Positions 32,459-40,404 of a stretch of 64,000 nucleotides of DNA are shown piece after piece. Within the stretch, counting starts at the first letter, position 1, and the number at the start of each line of letters is the position of its first letter. A program made the position numbers and the translations under genes. The notes under the pieces were generated by a model that worked only from the letters and a program-made list of their open reading frames with translations, was not told the origin of the DNA and did no database searches. The stretch is from Thalassovita mediterranea. Lineage in GTDB: Bacteria > Pseudomonadota > Alphaproteobacteria > Caulobacterales > Hyphomonadaceae. Where the stretch lies: NCBI GenBank assembly GCA_019448215.1, contig CP080408.1, forward strand, positions 310,001 to 374,000, given 5' to 3'.

Positions 32459-34426
32459 TTAAGTATCCAGGAAGCTCCGCAGCTTGCGGCTCCGGCTTGG
32501 GTGCTTGAGCTTTCTCAGCGCCTTTGCCTCGATCTGACGGATACGTTCGCGCGTCACGCTGAACTGCTGGCCGACCTCTTCCAGCGTGTGGTCGGTGTTC
32601 ATGCCGATGCCGAAGCGCATGCGCAGGACACGTTCCTCACGCGGGGTGAGCGAGGCGAGCACGCGGGTCGTGGTTTCGCGAAGGTTGGACTGGATCGCGC
32701 TGTCGACAGGCAACAGCGCCATCTTGTCCTCGATGAAGTCGCCGAGATTCGAGTCCTCGTCGTCGCCAATCGGCGTTTCGAGCGAGATCGGCTCTTTCGC
32801 AATCTTGAGGACCTTGCGGATCTTCTCCAGCGGCAGACCAAGCTTTTCAGCTAGCTCTTCCGGGGTCGGCTCGCGGCCAATCTCGTGCAGCATCTGGCGC
32901 TGGCTGCGGACGATCTTGTTGATCGTCTCGATCATGTGCACCGGAATACGGATCGTGCGGGCCTGGTCCGCGATGGACCGGGTAATCGCCTGACGAATCC
33001 ACCAGGTCGCATAGGTCGAGAATTTGTAACCGCGGCGGTATTCGAATTTATCGACCGCCTTCATCAGGCCGATATTGCCTTCCTGGATCAGGTCGAGGAA
33101 TTGCAGGCCGCGATTGGTGTATTTCTTGGCGATGGAGATCACGAGGCGCAGGTTTGCCTCAACCATTTCCTTCTTGGCGACGCGGGCTTCGCGTTCGCCC
33201 TTCTGGACGCGCTGAACAATCTGGCGGAAATCGTCGATCGGGATACCGATCTCCTGCGAAACGGCCGTGATCTCTTCGCGGATCTCGCCGATCTGATCGC
33301 CCTGGCTCTCGAAGAAGCTTTCCCACTTCTTCTTGGACTTCGCGTTCTCGAGCGTTTCTTCCTGCCAGTTCGGATTCAGCTCGTTGCCGAAATAGCTTTC
33401 GAGGAATTCCTTGCGCGGCACGCCCTTCGCGTCAGCCAGACGCATGAGCTTGCCTTCAAGGCCCATCAGCTTCTTGTTGATGGCGTAGAGCTGTTCAACA
33501 AGCGCTTCGATACGCGCATTGTTGATGTGCATCGTCTTGAGATTGTCGACGATGGACTGGGCCAGCGTGTCATACTCTTCGCGCGCATCGGCGGTCAGCG
33601 CCTTGCCGGCCATGCGGCGCTCAACGAGGCGCTCCTGCAGTTTGCGGTACTGACCGAAGGCGAGCGCGATCTCGTCCAGCTTGCCAAGCACGCCGTCACG
33701 AAGTTCGGCTTCCATGGCCGACATGGACATGGCCTGACCTTCTTCCTCGTCCTCGCGTTCTTCGCGGGCAAGGCGTTCCTCGGTCGTTTCGTTCTCGCGC
33801 TCTTTCGCCTCGGCTTCTTTTTCTTCCTCGGTCTTTTCGCGCGGTTCTGGCGTCGGGTTCTCCGCGCCATAGGTCGTTTCAAGGTCGATGAGGTCGCGCA
33901 GGAGAATGCGCTCATTCATGAGCTCATCGCGCCAGACCATCATGGCCTCAAAGGTCAGCGGGCTCTCGCAGAGGCCGCGGATCATGGCATCACGGCCGGC
34001 CTCGATACGCTTGGCAATCGCGATCTCGCCTTCACGCGACAGAAGCTCAACGGCGCCCATCTCGCGCAGATACATGCGCACAGGGTCATCGGTACGGTCA
34101 GAGCCGCGTGCATTGCCCTTTTTGGCAACTGCGCCGCTGGTGCCCGTCTTGGCGACAGCCGTACCCTTGGACGCGCCTTCCACTTCGTCTTCGTTCTCGA
34201 CGACCTGGATACCCATTTCAGAGAGGGCCGACATCGTATCTTCGATCTGGTCGGAGGACAGCTCCTCCGATGGAAGGACGTTGTTCAGCTCTTCATGCGT
34301 GACATAGCCCTTGGACTTTGCCTGCTTGATGAATTTCTTGATCTTCGAGTCGTTGAGATCGAGCACCGGACGGTCGTCGGTCTCGACTTCGGCGCCTTCA
34401 TTGTCACGCTTCTGGGCTTTCGCCAT
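32459..34426 (-). CDS. rpoD: RNA polymerase primary sigma factor (sigma-70)
   Basis: Housekeeping sigma factor of 655 residues. Region 1.1 is acidic and starts near [20 protein letters not shown]. Region 1.2 is [23 protein letters not shown] long non-conserved insert rich in Glu and Lys follows. Region 2 has [21 protein letters not shown] and [16 protein letters not shown]; region 3 has [13 protein letters not shown]; region 4 ends [27 protein letters not shown] precedes the ATG. It lies 59 bases downstream of dnaG in the conserved order and ends at a strong terminator. Confidence 0.98.
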
Positions 34427-34485: not shown

Positions 34486-36303
34486 TCAGTCCTGATCGGT
34501 TTGTTCTGCTGCTTCATTGAGACGCGCCACACGTGCCTCACGTTCCGCCACTTCATGCCGACGCCGTCGCCAATTCTCAGGTGACGCTGTCACCTCAGCC
34601 TTGGCAACGTCGCCAAATGCGCTGGCGTCGTCGCGGGCCACGTATTGCTCGAGGGCGATAAGCCATTCCCGTTCGTCAGCTCCATCGGGAGCTATAGCAG
34701 TTGTTGCGGGATAAGAATTGAGCAAGTCAGCAGCGCGCATGTTTCCAGACTGCACTAAATGGGTCGCGATTGCGCTGCGGTCAACACCTGCGCCTGCGTC
34801 AGGCCACGAAATGATCACATCGCGCAAGGTTGCGACATCCTCATCAAGGAAGATCGCCATGGAGAGTAGCTCAAATCCGACATCGATCAGATGGGGCGAA
34901 TCAATGGCGCGCACCAGCAGGCCGAGGCCCCGCGTCTTGGCTGGCGCACTTGTCTGGTGGGCGCCTTTGACCGGCCCATCGGACCGCCCCGCAGGGCCGC
35001 GCGCGCGCCGGCGCATCTGCCAGAGATGGTCATTCTTGCGGGATTTCAGCTCCTGCTCATAGGCCGCGCGCACGCCTGCATGCTGGATCGTAGCCGCCGC
35101 CTGCATCAGACGCGCTTCGAGCCCGGCCTGCCTTTCGGGCGTATCAAGTGGCTCTGCGTCGCGCTCCCGGCGCCAGAGCACCTCGATCAGCGGTACTGAG
35201 TTGGACAGTGCCTGCTTCATCGCTTCGGGGCCTGACTGGCGGATGAGGTCATCCGGGTCCATCCCGCCAGAGAGCAGACAGAAGAACAAGGTCCGCTCTG
35301 GCTGAAGGTGCGGCAGCGCGCGCTCAATCGAGCGGTAAGCGGCGCGAAGGCCCGCTGCGTCACCATCGAAACAGAGAACCGGCTCTGGCCCTGCGCGCCA
35401 CAGAAGCGCCAGCTGGTCTTCGGTCAGCGCCGTACCGAGCGGGGCGACGGCATGGCCGATCCCCGCCTCTGCCATGGCGATAGCGTCCATATAGCCTTCG
35501 GTGACGATCAGCCCACCTTCATCGGTGCTGCCAAAGGCTTCGCGCGCATCCTTGTAGCGATAGAGGACGCGCCCCTTGTGGAAGAGCTCTGTGTCATTGG
35601 AATTGAGGTATTTCGGCTTGGCGTCCGGCTGCAGCCCCCTGCCCCCGAAGGCGATGACCTGGCCGCGCACATCGGTGATCGGGAAGATGACGCGCCCACG
35701 GAACCGGTCATACGGATCGCCCCCGCCCTCTTTGACGACGGCGAGGCCCGCATCGATAATTTCCTGCATGCCGAAACTTTCGGCTTTCAGATGGTCGATC
35801 GTCTTGCGCCAGTCATCGGGCGCATAGCCGAGCCGGTGACGCGCCCAGGCCGCCGCGCCTAGCCCGCGATTTTCCAGATACTCGCGTGCTTCGGTGCCTT
35901 CTGCCGCGCGCAACCGGTCCTCGAAGAACTTGCAGGCCGCTTCGCAGCAGGCATAGAGCCGCTTGCGACGGTCATAGGTCTCTTCGTCCTGCGGCGTTGC
36001 CTTGGGAAGCTGCATGCCCGCTTCATCGGCAAGCTTCTCGACCGCCTCCATGAAGGACAGCCGCTCGGTCTCCATGACGAAGGAGATGACGTCCCCGCCA
36101 ATGCCGGATGAGAAGTCCTTGAAGATGCGCTTCTGGTCGTTGACGTAGAAGCTCGGGCTTTTCTCATTGGTGAAAGGCGACAGGCCGACCCATTCCTTGC
36201 CCTGCTTCTTCAGCTTCACCTTGCGCCCGATGACATCGGACGGCCGGATGCGGGCCTTCAACTCCTCGACGAAGCCATCTGGTATGCGAATGGAAGCTGA
36301 CAT
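34486..36303 (-). CDS. dnaG: DNA primase DnaG with an N-terminal domain lacking zinc ligands
   Basis: Primase making RNA primers for replication, 605 residues. The RNA-polymerase core and TOPRIM fold look intact: FRGRVIFPI, VTEGYMDAIAMAEAG, CFDGDAAGLRAAYRS, DPDDLIRQ. A C-terminal region of ~150 residues likely binds helicase. The N-terminal ribbon keeps the fold signature SPFTNEKSPSFYVNDQK and FKDFSSGIGGD. The four residues that are Cys, His, Cys, Cys in zinc-binding primases are here S42, T45, D63 and S66. Upstream genes on the strand are not the usual YqeY neighbour but an accessory block. Confidence 0.96.
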   Translation of the reverse strand: MSASIRIPDGFVEELKARIRPSDVIGRKVKLKKQGKEWVGLSPFTNEKSPSFYVNDQKRIFKDFSSGIGGDVISFVMETERLSFMEAVEKLADEAGMQLPKATPQDEETYDRRKRLYACCEAACKFFEDRLRAAEGTEAREYLENRGLGAAAWARHRLGYAPDDWRKTIDHLKAESFGMQEIIDAGLAVVKEGGGDPYDRFRGRVIFPITDVRGQVIAFGGRGLQPDAKPKYLNSNDTELFHKGRVLYRYKDAREAFGSTDEGGLIVTEGYMDAIAMAEAGIGHAVAPLGTALTEDQLALLWRAGPEPVLCFDGDAAGLRAAYRSIERALPHLQPERTLFFCLLSGGMDPDDLIRQSGPEAMKQALSNSVPLIEVLWRRERDAEPLDTPERQAGLEARLMQAAATIQHAGVRAAYEQELKSRKNDHLWQMRRRARGPAGRSDGPVKGAHQTSAPAKTRGLGLLVRAIDSPHLIDVGFELLSMAIFLDEDVATLRDVIISWPDAGAGVDRSAIATHLVQSGNMRAADLLNSYPATTAIAPDGADEREWLIALEQYVARDDASAFGDVAKAEVTASPENWRRRRHEVAEREARVARLNEAAEQTDQD

Positions 36304-36386: not shown

Positions 36387-37151
36387 CTAGGCGGGAACGG
36401 CGCCTGCCGCTGCCTCCTCCTCCACGCAGATATAGCCTTCGCGCGGCAGCAGGATCCAAGCAATGACCCCCGCCATGACGTCGACCGCCACATGGACAAT
36501 GATGCCCGGCCAGAGCGAGCCAGACAGGACATAGGTCAGGGTCATGATGATGGTGACCGGCAGGATGCGGACCAGCCCCTGCACGCCCTGATAGATGTGG
36601 GCGAGGATGAAGACACCGATCGCGGCCAGCGCCGCCATCCAGAGCGGCATCAGAAGCGCCAGTACGCTGATGAGGAAGGCGCGGAAGATGACTTCCTCGG
36701 TGATGCCTGCCGTCACCGCGACCATGAAGAATCCCCAGCAGTCGCGGCGGCGACGCGGCATCAGCGCGTCATAGTCGCCCGAGCCGAACATGGACTGGCG
36801 CAGCGTCTCCTGGACTTCTGCATCACGGCGTATCGCGGGTAGCTGGGCGATCTGAAGCGCGAGAAAGCCGAGCGCGACCGCCCAAGCCGCGAACATGCCG
36901 ATGCCGCTGCCCCACGCAAAGCCGAGCGTCTCCAGTGACCGGCCTGACGAGGTCCATGCCCAGAGACTGATACCGCAGAGCAGCCAGAGAAGCGATCCGG
37001 TCACGGTCCAGTGAATGAAAGGGCTGCGCGTCGGCCGGGCGGGCTTGCGAATGCGCCGATAGATGTCCGAGGCCATGCCGCAGACCCAGAGAAGCAGGAT
37101 CGCACCAAGGCCAATAACGAGTTCGCGTTCTGTCTGAATGAAAGTTTCCAT
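36387..37151 (-). CDS. CPBP-family intramembrane protease-like protein
   Basis: Integral-membrane protein of 254 residues with about seven or eight helices and the CPBP (Abi/CAAX protease) motifs: E152-E153 followed by R157 (GITEEVIFRAFL), H185 (VFILAHIYQG) and H220 (WPGIIVHVAVDV). Family members are glutamic endopeptidases or bacteriocin-immunity and scaffolding proteins; the substrate is unknown. ATG 37151 follows AGGTGG, chosen over an upstream start at 37202. It is divergent from a TetR-family gene, which may regulate it. Confidence 0.88.
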   Translation of the reverse strand: METFIQTERELVIGLGAILLLWVCGMASDIYRRIRKPARPTRSPFIHWTVTGSLLWLLCGISLWAWTSSGRSLETLGFAWGSGIGMFAAWAVALGFLALQIAQLPAIRRDAEVQETLRQSMFGSGDYDALMPRRRRDCWGFFMVAVTAGITEEVIFRAFLISVLALLMPLWMAALAAIGVFILAHIYQGVQGLVRILPVTIIMTLTYVLSGSLWPGIIVHVAVDVMAGVIAWILLPREGYICVEEEAAAGAVPA

Positions 37152-37218
37152 GTGCCACCTGTCGAGGCCGCGCTTCGCAAACTGGACGCGCGGCGATGTC
37201 ATTGCAGCCCTCTGCTGC

Positions 37219-37261
37219 TTGAAAGTTCGCTCACTCTCGCTTAATATGAAGGTGAATTCAC
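37219..37261 (+). promoter_or_regulatory. promoter and candidate operator upstream of the TetR gene
   Basis: TTGAAA at 37219-37224, a 17-base spacer and TAATAT at 37242-37247 form a strong sigma-70-type promoter toward the TetR gene. The 10-base palindrome GTGAATTCAC (37252-37261) follows, with TTCACA repeated next to it. Its position just past the -10 fits autorepression, and the same site could control the divergent CPBP gene. The elements are visible; the regulator is inferred. Confidence 0.6.
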
Positions 37262-37286
37262 ATTCACATATGGGAAAGAAGCTCCG

Positions 37287-37934
37287 ATGTCAAACAGCTT
37301 TGCCCGGCCAGCGACGCAGGCGCGGTCCATGAAGACCCAGCAGAAGCTGATGGATGCGCTTGAGGCGCTGCTGCGGGAGAAAGACTTTGACGCGATTTCG
37401 GTGCCCGACCTTGCAGCCGAGGCAGGCGTCGCGGTCGGCACCGTATACCGCCGTTTCGAGAACAAGGAGGCGCTAATCCCGCTCCTGTTCGAGCTCTGGA
37501 AGACCCGCAGCGCGCTGCAGATGGAAACCGCCGCGGTCCAGGTCGAGGAAGTGACATCCGCCGACCTTCGCCAGCTCCTTCGCAGGCAGATGCGAGCGGC
37601 ATACAGCTTCATCCGTGAGCAAGCCCACATACTGCGCGCGGTGCACTTGCAGGGACGGCTTCGCCCGCAGCTGATCGGCGAGGATTGGAAGCAGCTCTGG
37701 AAGGATGCGCTTGCGGGCAACCGGGCCTTTCTGGAGCTTGTGAAAGACAGGATCGGCCAGTCAGATCTCGACCGCGCGGCAGAGATGATGATCTACATCG
37801 CCAACACGGCGCTCGTCGAAAAAGCCCTCTTCGATGAGGACGGTCCGGGATACGTCGTCACCGCAGAAGGCGATGCCTTCGCGAACGAGATTGCCGACAT
37901 TGTCTATGGGTATCTGTCCTTGGAAGATATCTGA
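37287..37934 (+). CDS. TetR-family transcriptional regulator
   Basis: Regulator of 215 residues with an N-terminal TetR HTH (about 25-75: ISVPDLAAEAGVAVGTVYRRFENKEAL) and a divergent ligand-binding domain. It is preceded by a good promoter and a palindrome, suggesting self-control and control of the divergent CPBP gene. The 3' end overlaps the convergent DUF4180 gene by 31 bases. The ligand is unknown. Confidence 0.92.
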   Translation: MSNSFARPATQARSMKTQQKLMDALEALLREKDFDAISVPDLAAEAGVAVGTVYRRFENKEALIPLLFELWKTRSALQMETAAVQVEEVTSADLRQLLRRQMRAAYSFIREQAHILRAVHLQGRLRPQLIGEDWKQLWKDALAGNRAFLELVKDRIGQSDLDRAAEMMIYIANTALVEKALFDEDGPGYVVTAEGDAFANEIADIVYGYLSLEDI

Positions 37935-38293
37935 TCGAGGCGAGCCTCAAATTCGGATCTCGTCGCCATAAACCACACACGCGGCCCCCGATTGGACTCG
38001 CGAACAAAGTCCCTGAGCGCGCTGTTCGCGTCGACCTTGGCCGAGATGTCGCCGATGAAGGCCACGCTTAGCTGATAGTTGATGATCTTCTGGATGAAGC
38101 GCCCTGCCTGCCGCGTGCTGAGATCGAGAAACCCGTCTACAAGCCGTGAGACCGGAATCGCGACCCAGTCCGCATCCGTTGAAAAGGCCTCCGACAGGAC
38201 ATCGCTGGCGTCCTGTTCACCTGCAAGGAGGGGGCCGTCCGCATCCAGCCAGACAACGGTCGTCCCGCCCGCTTCGGTTATCGTCGCTGTCAT
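37904..38293 (-). CDS. DUF4180 domain protein
   Basis: Small soluble protein of 129 residues resembling DUF4180: VVWLDADGPLLAGEQDASDVLSEAF, DWVAIPVSRL, DLSTRQAGRFIQKIINYQL, VAFIGDIS and GPRVWFMATRSEFEARL. No function is established for the family. ATG 38293 overlaps the stop codon of the upstream hydrolase gene (ATGA), so the two are translationally coupled. It overlaps the convergent TetR gene by 31 bases at the 3' end. Confidence 0.85.
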   Translation of the reverse strand: MTATITEAGGTTVVWLDADGPLLAGEQDASDVLSEAFSTDADWVAIPVSRLVDGFLDLSTRQAGRFIQKIINYQLSVAFIGDISAKVDANSALRDFVRESNRGPRVWFMATRSEFEARLDQISSKDRYP

Positions 38294-39162
38294 ACCAGCG
38301 TGCCCGTCTTACGACGCAGGAAGTCCGACACTTTGCCTGCGGCATCGGCAATGAAATGATAGGCTTCGGGTCGATAATCCACCTCGATCTTCGGTGCGTG
38401 CGCGTCGACCCGTCGGCGGATATCAGCCGAATCGATAAGGGCGTCCCGGCCCGCCGCGATGATGAGGACAGGCATGGATAGACGTGCCAGCTCTTCATCC
38501 GTCAGGCGTGGTATTTTCATGAAGCGCGGACGTGCCTGATCCATGACAAGGTTCATGAAGGCTCCGAAACGCTGAACCTCTGCCGGAGTGTTCTCCTCAT
38601 CGGGGGCTGGACCCAGAATTAGCTCGCGGATCTTCTGCGCGCCCGTTTTGCCCATGAAGAAAAGCGGGAAAGCCTTGAGCAGGAAATTCTTCTGCCGCCC
38701 TATGCCTGCGGGCACGATACCGGCCAGTGCGCGCACGCGGCCCGGGCGGCGGTGCGCATAGTCGAGAACCAGCCAGCCGCCGAGCGACACGCCGCAGAAT
38801 GCCGCAGCCTCGACGCCCAGCGCCTGCATGACATCGTCCAGCCAGAGCGCATGGTCCTCGCTCGCCAGCGGACGGCGTACAGGTGCAGAAAGGCCCGGCT
38901 CGCCGATCATGTCGACGCAATAGCAGCGAAAGTCACTGGCATAGGCCTCTATCTCAAGCATCCAGCTCGCCGAATTGGCCGACGAGCCGTGATGCAGGAA
39001 CAGCGCCGGGCCATCTTCAGGTCCGCAGACAATGACGAACGTCTCTCCGAAACGCGTTTCAATCCTGCGTGGCTCTGCCGGAACTGGCCAATAGGTCAGC
39101 AGCTCTCTATAGGCCGCCTCTAAAGCCTGGCGCCCAGCCTCGCTCTTGAAGACGTCGGCCAC
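38290..39162 (-). CDS. alpha/beta hydrolase
   Basis: Alpha/beta-hydrolase-fold enzyme of 290 residues, probably cytoplasmic. The oxyanion-hole segment is LFLHHGSSANSASW, the nucleophile S126 lies in CGVSLGGWL, the acid is in IIAAGRDALID and the histidine in EAYHFIADA. The substrate is unknown. The start is GTG at 39162, three bases after the HTH gene stop. It is coupled to the downstream DUF4180 gene, giving an HTH-hydrolase-DUF4180 cassette. Confidence 0.9.
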   Translation of the reverse strand: MADVFKSEAGRQALEAAYRELLTYWPVPAEPRRIETRFGETFVIVCGPEDGPALFLHHGSSANSASWMLEIEAYASDFRCYCVDMIGEPGLSAPVRRPLASEDHALWLDDVMQALGVEAAAFCGVSLGGWLVLDYAHRRPGRVRALAGIVPAGIGRQKNFLLKAFPLFFMGKTGAQKIRELILGPAPDEENTPAEVQRFGAFMNLVMDQARPRFMKIPRLTDEELARLSMPVLIIAAGRDALIDSADIRRRVDAHAPKIEVDYRPEAYHFIADAAGKVSDFLRRKTGTLV

Positions 39163-39165
39163 GGG

Positions 39166-39591
39166 TCAGTCCCGACCGGTATAGAGTTCGATCAGGCCAA
39201 GTACTGCGATGCTGGCACCGACGCCGCCCAGACATACGACTTTGAGACGCTGGCGGGCCTCATCATAGACCGTCTCGACACGAAGGGCGGGCGCATCGCC
39301 GCGTCGCCCATTCGACGCCGCGACGATCCCGTCCGTCATGCGCATGGCCTCGTCACGGCTGATTCCCTCAATCTCGACAATAGTAGAGGCATCGACATGC
39401 CTCGGCGGCGCGCCGACTGAAGGCGCTTCGGGAAGCCCCGCATAGCGGGACATGGCCTCACGCGTGATGCGCCAGGACTTGCCGACCTTCTGGGCTTCAA
39501 GCCGCCCCTCACGGATGTGCCTGCGTACCGTGCGCGCGTGTAAGCCAAGCTCTTCGGCGACGTCTTCGGCTGTTAACAGTGGGCGTGACAT
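39166..39591 (-). CDS. helix-turn-helix (excisionase-type DNA-binding) protein with hydrophobic C-terminus
   Basis: Protein of 141 residues. The N-terminal ~50 residues form an excisionase/MerR-like HTH (LLTAEDVAEELGLHARTVRRHIREGRLEAQKVGKSWRI, read in pieces). A middle region with EIEGISRDEAMRMTDGI follows, and the C-terminus has a hydrophobic stretch VVCLGGVGASIAVLGLIELY that might insert in the membrane. AAGGAG precedes ATG 39591. It is first in the HTH-hydrolase-DUF4180 cassette and may be its regulator. No integrase is nearby, so an excisionase role is unlikely. Confidence 0.82.
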   Translation of the reverse strand: MSRPLLTAEDVAEELGLHARTVRRHIREGRLEAQKVGKSWRITREAMSRYAGLPEAPSVGAPPRHVDASTIVEIEGISRDEAMRMTDGIVAASNGRRGDAPALRVETVYDEARQRLKVVCLGGVGASIAVLGLIELYTGRD

Positions 39592-39782
39592 GGTCGGCTC
39601 CTTTATTATTACATAAATGCACAATAAATGGAGTCAATAAGGACGTTTATGGAACTTTACGGGCCAATAATGCCGTGTACCGGGCCCGCACGCGTCCTTG
39701 TACACCGGTCAAGCGCATGGCCCTCCTGGCTCTCTGAGCCGGAGCGACTTTTCGAATTAGGATTAAGAATACCGGGTTGAGC

Positions 39783-40271
39783 CTAGCGCAGCGCCTGACG
39801 GACGGCTTTGCCGGCGGTACCGGTGTCGATGCGGCCGGGATAGCGGCTTTGCAGCTCTGCCATGCAGCGGCCCATATCTTTCAGCTTGGTCGCTTCCAGA
39901 TCGTTCACCACGGCATCGACGGCACTTTCCAGGGCAGCGCCCTGAAGCGGTTGCGGCAGGAAGGACTGGAGAATCTCCATTTCCTCGCGCTCACGCTCTG
40001 CATCCGTGATGCGGCCTGACTCGTCGAACTCACGGGCCGACACTTCGCGCTGGGCCACCATGATCTCGAGCAGCTTGCGAACTTCAGTGTCTTCGCACCC
40101 CGCGCACTGGCCCTGTCCACGGGCCGTGACGTCACGATCGCGCATGGCACAGCTCACCAGACGCAGCGTGCGCGCACGGATGCCTTCGGCATCGTCGACT
40201 TCAGCTTTCTGGAGTGCGATCAAAACACGGTCGCGGATCGTGTTAGCTGGAGAAACTTCTGTCTGTCCCAT
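39783..40271 (-). CDS. GatB/YqeY domain protein
   Basis: Protein of 162 residues of the YqeY family, related to the C-terminal tRNA-binding domain of GatB. Signature segments are ANTIRDRVLIALQKAE, QREVSAREFDESGRITDA, EREEMEILQSFLPQPL and MGRCMAELQSRYPGRIDTGT. A short CAGC pair (GQGQCAGCEDTEV) is present in the variable loop. Its precise role is unknown. ATG 40271 is used; a longer reading is rejected. In related bacteria it precedes dnaG-rpoD; here about 3.5 kb intervenes. Divergent from carA. Confidence 0.92.
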   Translation of the reverse strand: MGQTEVSPANTIRDRVLIALQKAEVDDAEGIRARTLRLVSCAMRDRDVTARGQGQCAGCEDTEVRKLLEIMVAQREVSAREFDESGRITDAEREREEMEILQSFLPQPLQGAALESAVDAVVNDLEATKLKDMGRCMAELQSRYPGRIDTGTAGKAVRQALR

Positions 40272-40404
40272 ACCTGCTCTTTTATACATGGACCTCGAAC
40301 TTGACGCCCGGGTCACTGCACGCCTATCTCACGCCGCCGGAGGATGAGGTCTGTTAGTGACCGAATCCCTAATGGCGTCTGACAGGACGCGAGGAGATAC
40401 GCGC

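Follow-up and report, generated by a model that had tools for sequence, protein, structure and literature searches.

The DnaG primases of B. stearothermophilus (1d0q), A. aeolicus (2au3), and E. coli bind zinc in a CHC2-type ribbon, whose ligand set is Cys, His, Cys, and Cys (CHCC). For the zinc ribbons of ribosomal proteins, cysteine-free copies exist, in most cases as a second copy that serves when zinc is limiting. We analyzed a stretch of 64,000 nucleotides from Thalassovita mediterranea (contig CP080408.1, positions 310,001 to 374,000 of the forward strand; from here on, the window), which encodes a DnaG that differs from the zinc-binding enzymes in that all four ligands are replaced and Gly65 has become Ser. 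Replaced ribbon cysteines are what it shares with the ribosomal copies, but here the zinc-less form is the sole DnaG found in the genome. Passages of PMC4999995 describe metal-less zinc fingers, the U-box and YlxR-like treble clefs, in which zinc chelation is likewise replaced and the fold is still recognizable; these belong to a different fold group, whereas in DnaG an enzyme essential for replication is affected, and the same replacing residues appear repeatedly. Animal mitochondrial TWINKLE, a T7 gp4-like helicase, has lost primase activity together with other primase motifs, whereas the window DnaG keeps its catalytic motifs. A passage of PMC6163395 calls the three cysteines and one histidine of the primase zinc motif highly conserved, and one of PMC5429622 reports that the core on its own did not form a stable complex with single-stranded DNA. 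We did not find a zinc-less DnaG described in the open-access literature (titles, abstract openings, and passages); subscription literature was mostly uncovered, and a description may be in print elsewhere. We conclude that the window protein is probably the cell's working replicative primase, with a metal-independent CHC2 ribbon. The features concerned are as follows.

34486..36303, minus strand: dnaG, DNA primase, 605 amino acids (open reading frame with ATG start; TIGR01391, PF08275, PF01807, and Toprim matches)
36004..36303, minus strand: CHC2-type ribbon domain, predicted to be zinc-free, residues 1-100
36178..36180, minus strand: Ser42, zinc ligand 1 position (Cys in zinc types), codon TCG; Ser in 141/141 zinc-less genomes typed
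36169..36171, minus strand: Thr45, zinc ligand 2 position (His in zinc types), codon ACC
36118..36120, minus strand: Lys62, the residue before ligand 3; Lys or Arg, among zinc-less rows of two surveys, only in the window's family
36115..36117, minus strand: Asp63, zinc ligand 3 position (Cys in zinc types), codon GAC; zinc-less genomes have Cys (94) or Asp (47) here and no other residue
36109..36111, minus strand: Ser65, codon TCA; Gly in 185/186 zinc-type genomes typed
36106..36108, minus strand: Ser66, zinc ligand 4 position (Cys in zinc types), codon TCC; Ser, Thr, or Ala in zinc-less genomes
35314..35511, minus strand: TOPRIM domain, PF13662 match on residues 265-330

The four ligand positions were typed in ribbons aligned to a profile built for this analysis. 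Residues 42, 45, 63, and 66 of the window DnaG (ribbon sequence GLSPFTNEKSPSF...KDFSSGIGGD) align with the Cys, His, Cys, and Cys of zinc-type ribbons, and the ligand loss claimed by the original prediction (Ser42, Thr45, Asp63, and Ser66) is real. Because the first Cys of the protein is residue 119 and the first His is residue 156, displaced or second ligands in the ribbon are ruled out; the cysteines are missing rather than displaced. The ligand set of a CHC2 zinc finger is absent, and, judged by its ligands, the domain is not a CHC2 zinc finger and would be a zinc-free variant of a known domain. By the features tested, the protein otherwise appears to be a normal member of the DnaG family: it scores 428.1 bits with TIGR01391 (dnaG; cutoff, 283.6) and 97.8 bits with PF01807 (cutoff, 24.9), its ribbon lies N-terminal to the core, and its reading frame is on the minus strand, the plus strand across 34486..36303 being interrupted by stops. 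The catalytic TOPRIM motifs, described as intact in the original prediction, appear so here, with matches to Toprim and with E269, D313, and D315, which we take to be the TOPRIM catalytic residues, showing no variation in an alignment of 56 zinc-less DnaG proteins. Further, G35, P43, F44, E47, P50, S51, F52, and G70 are invariant across 71 zinc-less ribbons. At the level of sequence, the four ligands are absent, and the remaining ribbon and the catalytic core are conserved.

The genome that contains the window is a single contig of 3,218,854 bases, listed as 100% complete. A second, ordinary dnaG elsewhere would have refuted the original prediction; we found no second ribbon protein in this genome, in a search that returned a single PF01807 match at E ≤ 10 and did not extend to other primase superfamilies. 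Exactly one ribbon match at E ≤ 0.001 was present in 112/119 zinc-less genomes of the order, and 7/119 had a second ribbon match of 22-60 bits. The ratio of nonsynonymous to synonymous substitution rates (dN/dS) of the ribbon in the window's family had a median of 0.07, and the highest pair reached 0.48 (388/435 pairs from 30 genomes, with dS between 0.1 and 2.5). These values indicate that the gene is maintained and that the ribbon is under strong purifying selection; together with the sole ribbon match, they fit the earlier suggestion that this is the working primase. LigA and RecR of the same genome retain their Cys4 sites, so the loss is not general as far as two proteins show; a general loss of zinc sites is unsupported by these, the two zinc proteins examined.

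We surveyed the order, class, and phylum for the zinc-less state. In the order, a search of 150 genomes gave a match in 148, of which 147 could be typed (G218, with a partial match, was left out); 119 were zinc-less and 28 were CHCC, which fits the suggestion in the original prediction of possible counterparts among Caulobacterales relatives. All 28 CHCC genomes belong to one family, f147, where they make up 28 of the 29 typed. Ligand 3 is Cys in 74/119 zinc-less genomes of the order and Asp in 45/119, and total ligand loss is therefore the extreme form of a state in which most of these relatives keep one cysteine. The window's genus is split between Asp (8/15) and Cys (7/15) at this position, so the last cysteine changes even between close relatives. 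A sequencing error or a mutation private to the window is ruled out, the set Ser, Thr, Asp, and Ser being present in 8/15 genomes of the genus, the window included. Two genomes of the order, G269 and G331, gave no DnaG ribbon match; both, like G218, are listed as 96-99% complete.

In the class survey, 184 of the 190 genomes searched had a match (3 in the order and 181 in other orders), and 180 of those 181 were typed, 22 as zinc-less and 158 as CHCC. The genome left out, G087, has all four ligands, which flank an insert that splits the ribbon. We note that this dnaG (L447, ∼1660-2637) carries an intein-like insert (LAGLIDADG_3, E 4.9e-7) that starts with Cys and ends with Asn immediately before the ligand-3 Cys of the zinc-type ribbon. 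In the phylum survey, made with a profile of zinc-less ribbons, 288 of 299 genomes had a match; the count covers the 31 best, all of which were zinc-less and lay within the class Alphaproteobacteria, and 19 fetched from the next-scoring genomes, not taken strictly in score order, all of which were CHCC (17 from outside the class). Combined, the class and order surveys gave 141/327 zinc-less and 186/327 CHCC genomes, and, with the same zinc-less pattern recurring in 141 genomes, chance is not at issue.

The replaced residues change together. Ligands 1, 2, and 4 are lost as a unit: in each of the 327 survey genomes, these three are all missing or the full set of four is in place. In the zinc-less genomes, ligand 1 is invariably Ser, for which all six Ser codons are used; ligand 2 varies among T, N, K, S, Q, A, and G; ligand 3 is Cys or Asp and nothing else, although going from Cys to Asp takes two base substitutions; and at ligand 4, Ser (120) is far more frequent than Thr (19) and Ala (2). 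Position 65, which is Gly in all but 1 of the 186 zinc types, is Ser (125) or Ala (16). This pattern speaks for selection acting on the replacing residues and not for drift. Lys68 is present in 57% of zinc-less versus 4% of zinc-type class rows (frequencies uncorrected for relatedness); it was rejected as a zinc-less-specific residue, as zinc-type Bacteroidales carry it too. Independent-pair tests of co-varying residues had only 2 usable pairs on the branches starred in our trees.

The trait reaches well past the clade of Caulobacterales relatives that the original prediction had named. A pattern scan of named genomes found at least 119 loci, all with a ribbon match; because the pattern was restricted to Cys/Asp-like codons at ligand 3 and to Ser-like ones at both position 65 and position 66, the scan speaks to presence and not to frequency. 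Among the matches listed, to which the counts and names in this paragraph refer, 105 are zinc-less and 14 keep cysteines. Forty of the 105 are labeled Alphaproteobacteria and include Pelagibacteraceae, Caulobacter, Asticcacaulis, Henriciella, Bradyrhizobium, Nitrobacter, and Ancylobacter. The other 65 comprise 47 Bacteroidota (Flavobacteriaceae among the groups), 4 Verrucomicrobiota, 3 Corynebacterium, 2 Saccharimonadota, 1 each of Calditrichota, Chlorobiota, Nevskia (Gammaproteobacteria), and a Fidelibacterota metagenome-assembled genome (MAG), 1 Pseudomonadota of unassigned class, and 4 that carry no label. Within this set, the closest relative of the window protein is that of Henriciella pelagia (L321), with a ribbon 97% identical and 83% identity over a longer alignment. 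Mixed ligand sets, absent from the class and order surveys, occur in a Ligilactobacillus MAG (L265), where Gln replaces the His ligand, and in three Weeksellaceae (L222, L300, and L320), which retain His with the three cysteines gone. The DnaG core of L237, on a contig labeled Candidatus Marinimicrobia, groups with alphaproteobacteria, and the contig is possibly misbinned. The Fidelibacterota row has its place among alphaproteobacterial cores in the tree across phyla, so it may be misbinned. The zinc-less state is a well-supported observation, clade-wide and recurrent in other phyla.

Trees of the catalytic core, built without the ribbon, require 14, 13, and 11 changes for the zinc-less rows of Alphaproteobacteria; in the first two, starred branches make at least 3 and at least 4 of these, respectively, unavoidable. 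A single clade for all zinc-less rows was weakly rejected (approximately unbiased (AU) test, p 0.031, with the two long-branch zinc-less rows L182 and L204 left out). The ribbon-only tree placed 46/47 zinc-less rows in one clade when the ligand columns were included; without these columns, it needs 7 changes, only 1 of them made unavoidable by starred branches. For Alphaproteobacteria, several origins or transfers, as opposed to a single one, are favored but not proven. The tree across phyla (69 rows) needs 12 changes, at least 3 of them forced by starred branches. In it, starred branches of 97-98 nest CHCC Bacteroidales within zinc-less Bacteroidota. Because the rows were collected with the scan pattern, and hence have Ser-like codons at both position 65 and position 66, zinc types from the rest of Bacteroidota are under-represented in this tree, which includes just 8 Flavobacteriia rows of those available. 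For the CHCC family f147, the best matches of the cores, among the matches listed, are mostly zinc-less relatives from its order, and those of its ribbons are long zinc ribbons of other alphaproteobacterial families. Holding f147 with its order in the ribbon tree was not rejected (AU p 0.228), nor was holding it with the long-ribbon families in the core tree (AU p 0.556), where the held tree was slightly better; the core placed f147 with its order with a support of 63 in the larger tree, and a starred branch nests it there in the smaller one. Regain of the site or exchange of the ribbon is no more than possible. We put forward tentatively, and would sooner doubt than assert, a wider proposal: that the zinc site is a reversible evolutionary switch, lost independently in several phyla via the same residue set and restored on two or more occasions (in Bacteroidales and in f147), with ribbon exchange as one route.

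How a ribbon might work without its metal can be sketched from these observations. AlphaFold2 predicted the ribbon fold of the window DnaG to be intact, unchanged in a VIA-align 2 comparison, which fits the earlier idea that a zinc-free fold is stabilized in another way. We infer that polar and packing contacts would replace the zinc that pins the two knuckles and would come from the co-changing set, namely Ser at ligand 1, Thr, Asn, Lys, Ser, and others at ligand 2, Asp or Cys at ligand 3, Ser or Ala at 65, and Ser or Thr at ligand 4. The zinc-free ribbon would still pass the template to the catalytic core, and the choice of start site would depend on residues of the ribbon surface, such as Lys62, and not on metal. 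The Lys62 position is K in 29 and R in 1 of the 30/30 typed genomes of the window's family (f1), and all other zinc-less survey rows have His, Phe, or Thr there. According to passages of PMC5204125, a Lys near the zinc ribbon affects start-site preference, favoring CCC in the C. difficile primase, and is present in A. aeolicus too. From the A. aeolicus alignment, this Lys would immediately precede ligand 3; in that case, a like preference would be expected from Lys62, which may set that of the window primase.

Several points weigh against a metal-independent working primase. Passages of PMC5204125 and PMC5429622 describe the intact zinc domain of other bacteria as essential, and a passage of PMC7231222 links the disappearance of three cysteines from animal TWINKLE to that of its primase activity. 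Further, the mean predicted local distance difference test (pLDDT) score of the whole DnaG chain was 79.5, and the AlphaFold2 model would be no proof of stability, because AlphaFold2 can draw zinc folds without metal. The fold might also be kept with template reading lost, the ribbon merely buttressing the core while the RNA polymerase domain and helicase set start sites, and zinc lost because recognition was lost. The freedom of ligand 2 to vary would suit this, as would reports, in passages of PMC5429622 and PMC5204125, respectively, that ribbon deletion disturbs the DNA-binding surface of the core, which makes a purely structural role conceivable, and that the helicase alters primase specificity. 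We consider it unlikely, given the strong purifying selection on the ribbon and the surface and motif residues outside the ligands that are conserved across phyla in the 71 zinc-less ribbons. The ribbon might instead bind metal in another way, through Asp63, through oxygens of Ser or Thr, or through residues contributed by the catalytic core or a second subunit, in line with the restriction of ligand 3 to Cys or Asp, both metal-capable. This is improbable with no Cys or His in the ribbon, no last Cys in 45/119 zinc-less genomes of the order, and Lys often at ligand 2, and sets of Ser, Thr, and Asp are unusual for structural zinc.

Zinc sparing, with scarcity of the metal driving the loss of the site as in the zinc-free ribosomal copies, would agree with the zinc-less form of Pelagibacteraceae, which are abundant in zinc-poor ocean water. 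LigA and RecR, however, keep their Cys4 sites, Bradyrhizobium and Corynebacterium, which are not ocean organisms, share the zinc-less state, and the replacement is in the only copy found, with no second paralogue, all of which makes this explanation very improbable. Least credible of all is a decaying or dispensable ribbon with another primase doing the work: animal TWINKLE, which lost cysteines and primase activity (passages of PMC7231222 and PMC3610141), offers a precedent, but the window gene has no frame break, a ribbon dN/dS of 0.07, and intact TOPRIM motifs, and it encodes the single ribbon protein of its genome, where other primase superfamilies were not searched for. A working primase with a metal-independent ribbon remains the reading we prefer, in which the absence of zinc, the reading of the template, and the replacing contacts are inferred. 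An essential primase apparently does not always need zinc. If this is true for Caulobacter, Bradyrhizobium, SAR11, and Flavobacteriaceae, priming of Okazaki fragments needs no zinc there, and the role of the metal could be tested directly on sister enzymes that, in nature, bind zinc or are free of it. Inhibitors that target the zinc site are concerned as well, as are annotations that name a domain of this type a CHC2 zinc finger.

The gene next downstream lies on the same strand as dnaG.

32459..34426, minus strand: rpoD (sigma-70 Pfam matches)

On the other side, a block of genes at 36387-39624 stands between dnaG and yqeY (39783-40316) and encodes an Rce1-like protease, a TetR regulator (on the other strand), a DUF4180 protein, an alpha/beta hydrolase, and an HTH_17 protein.
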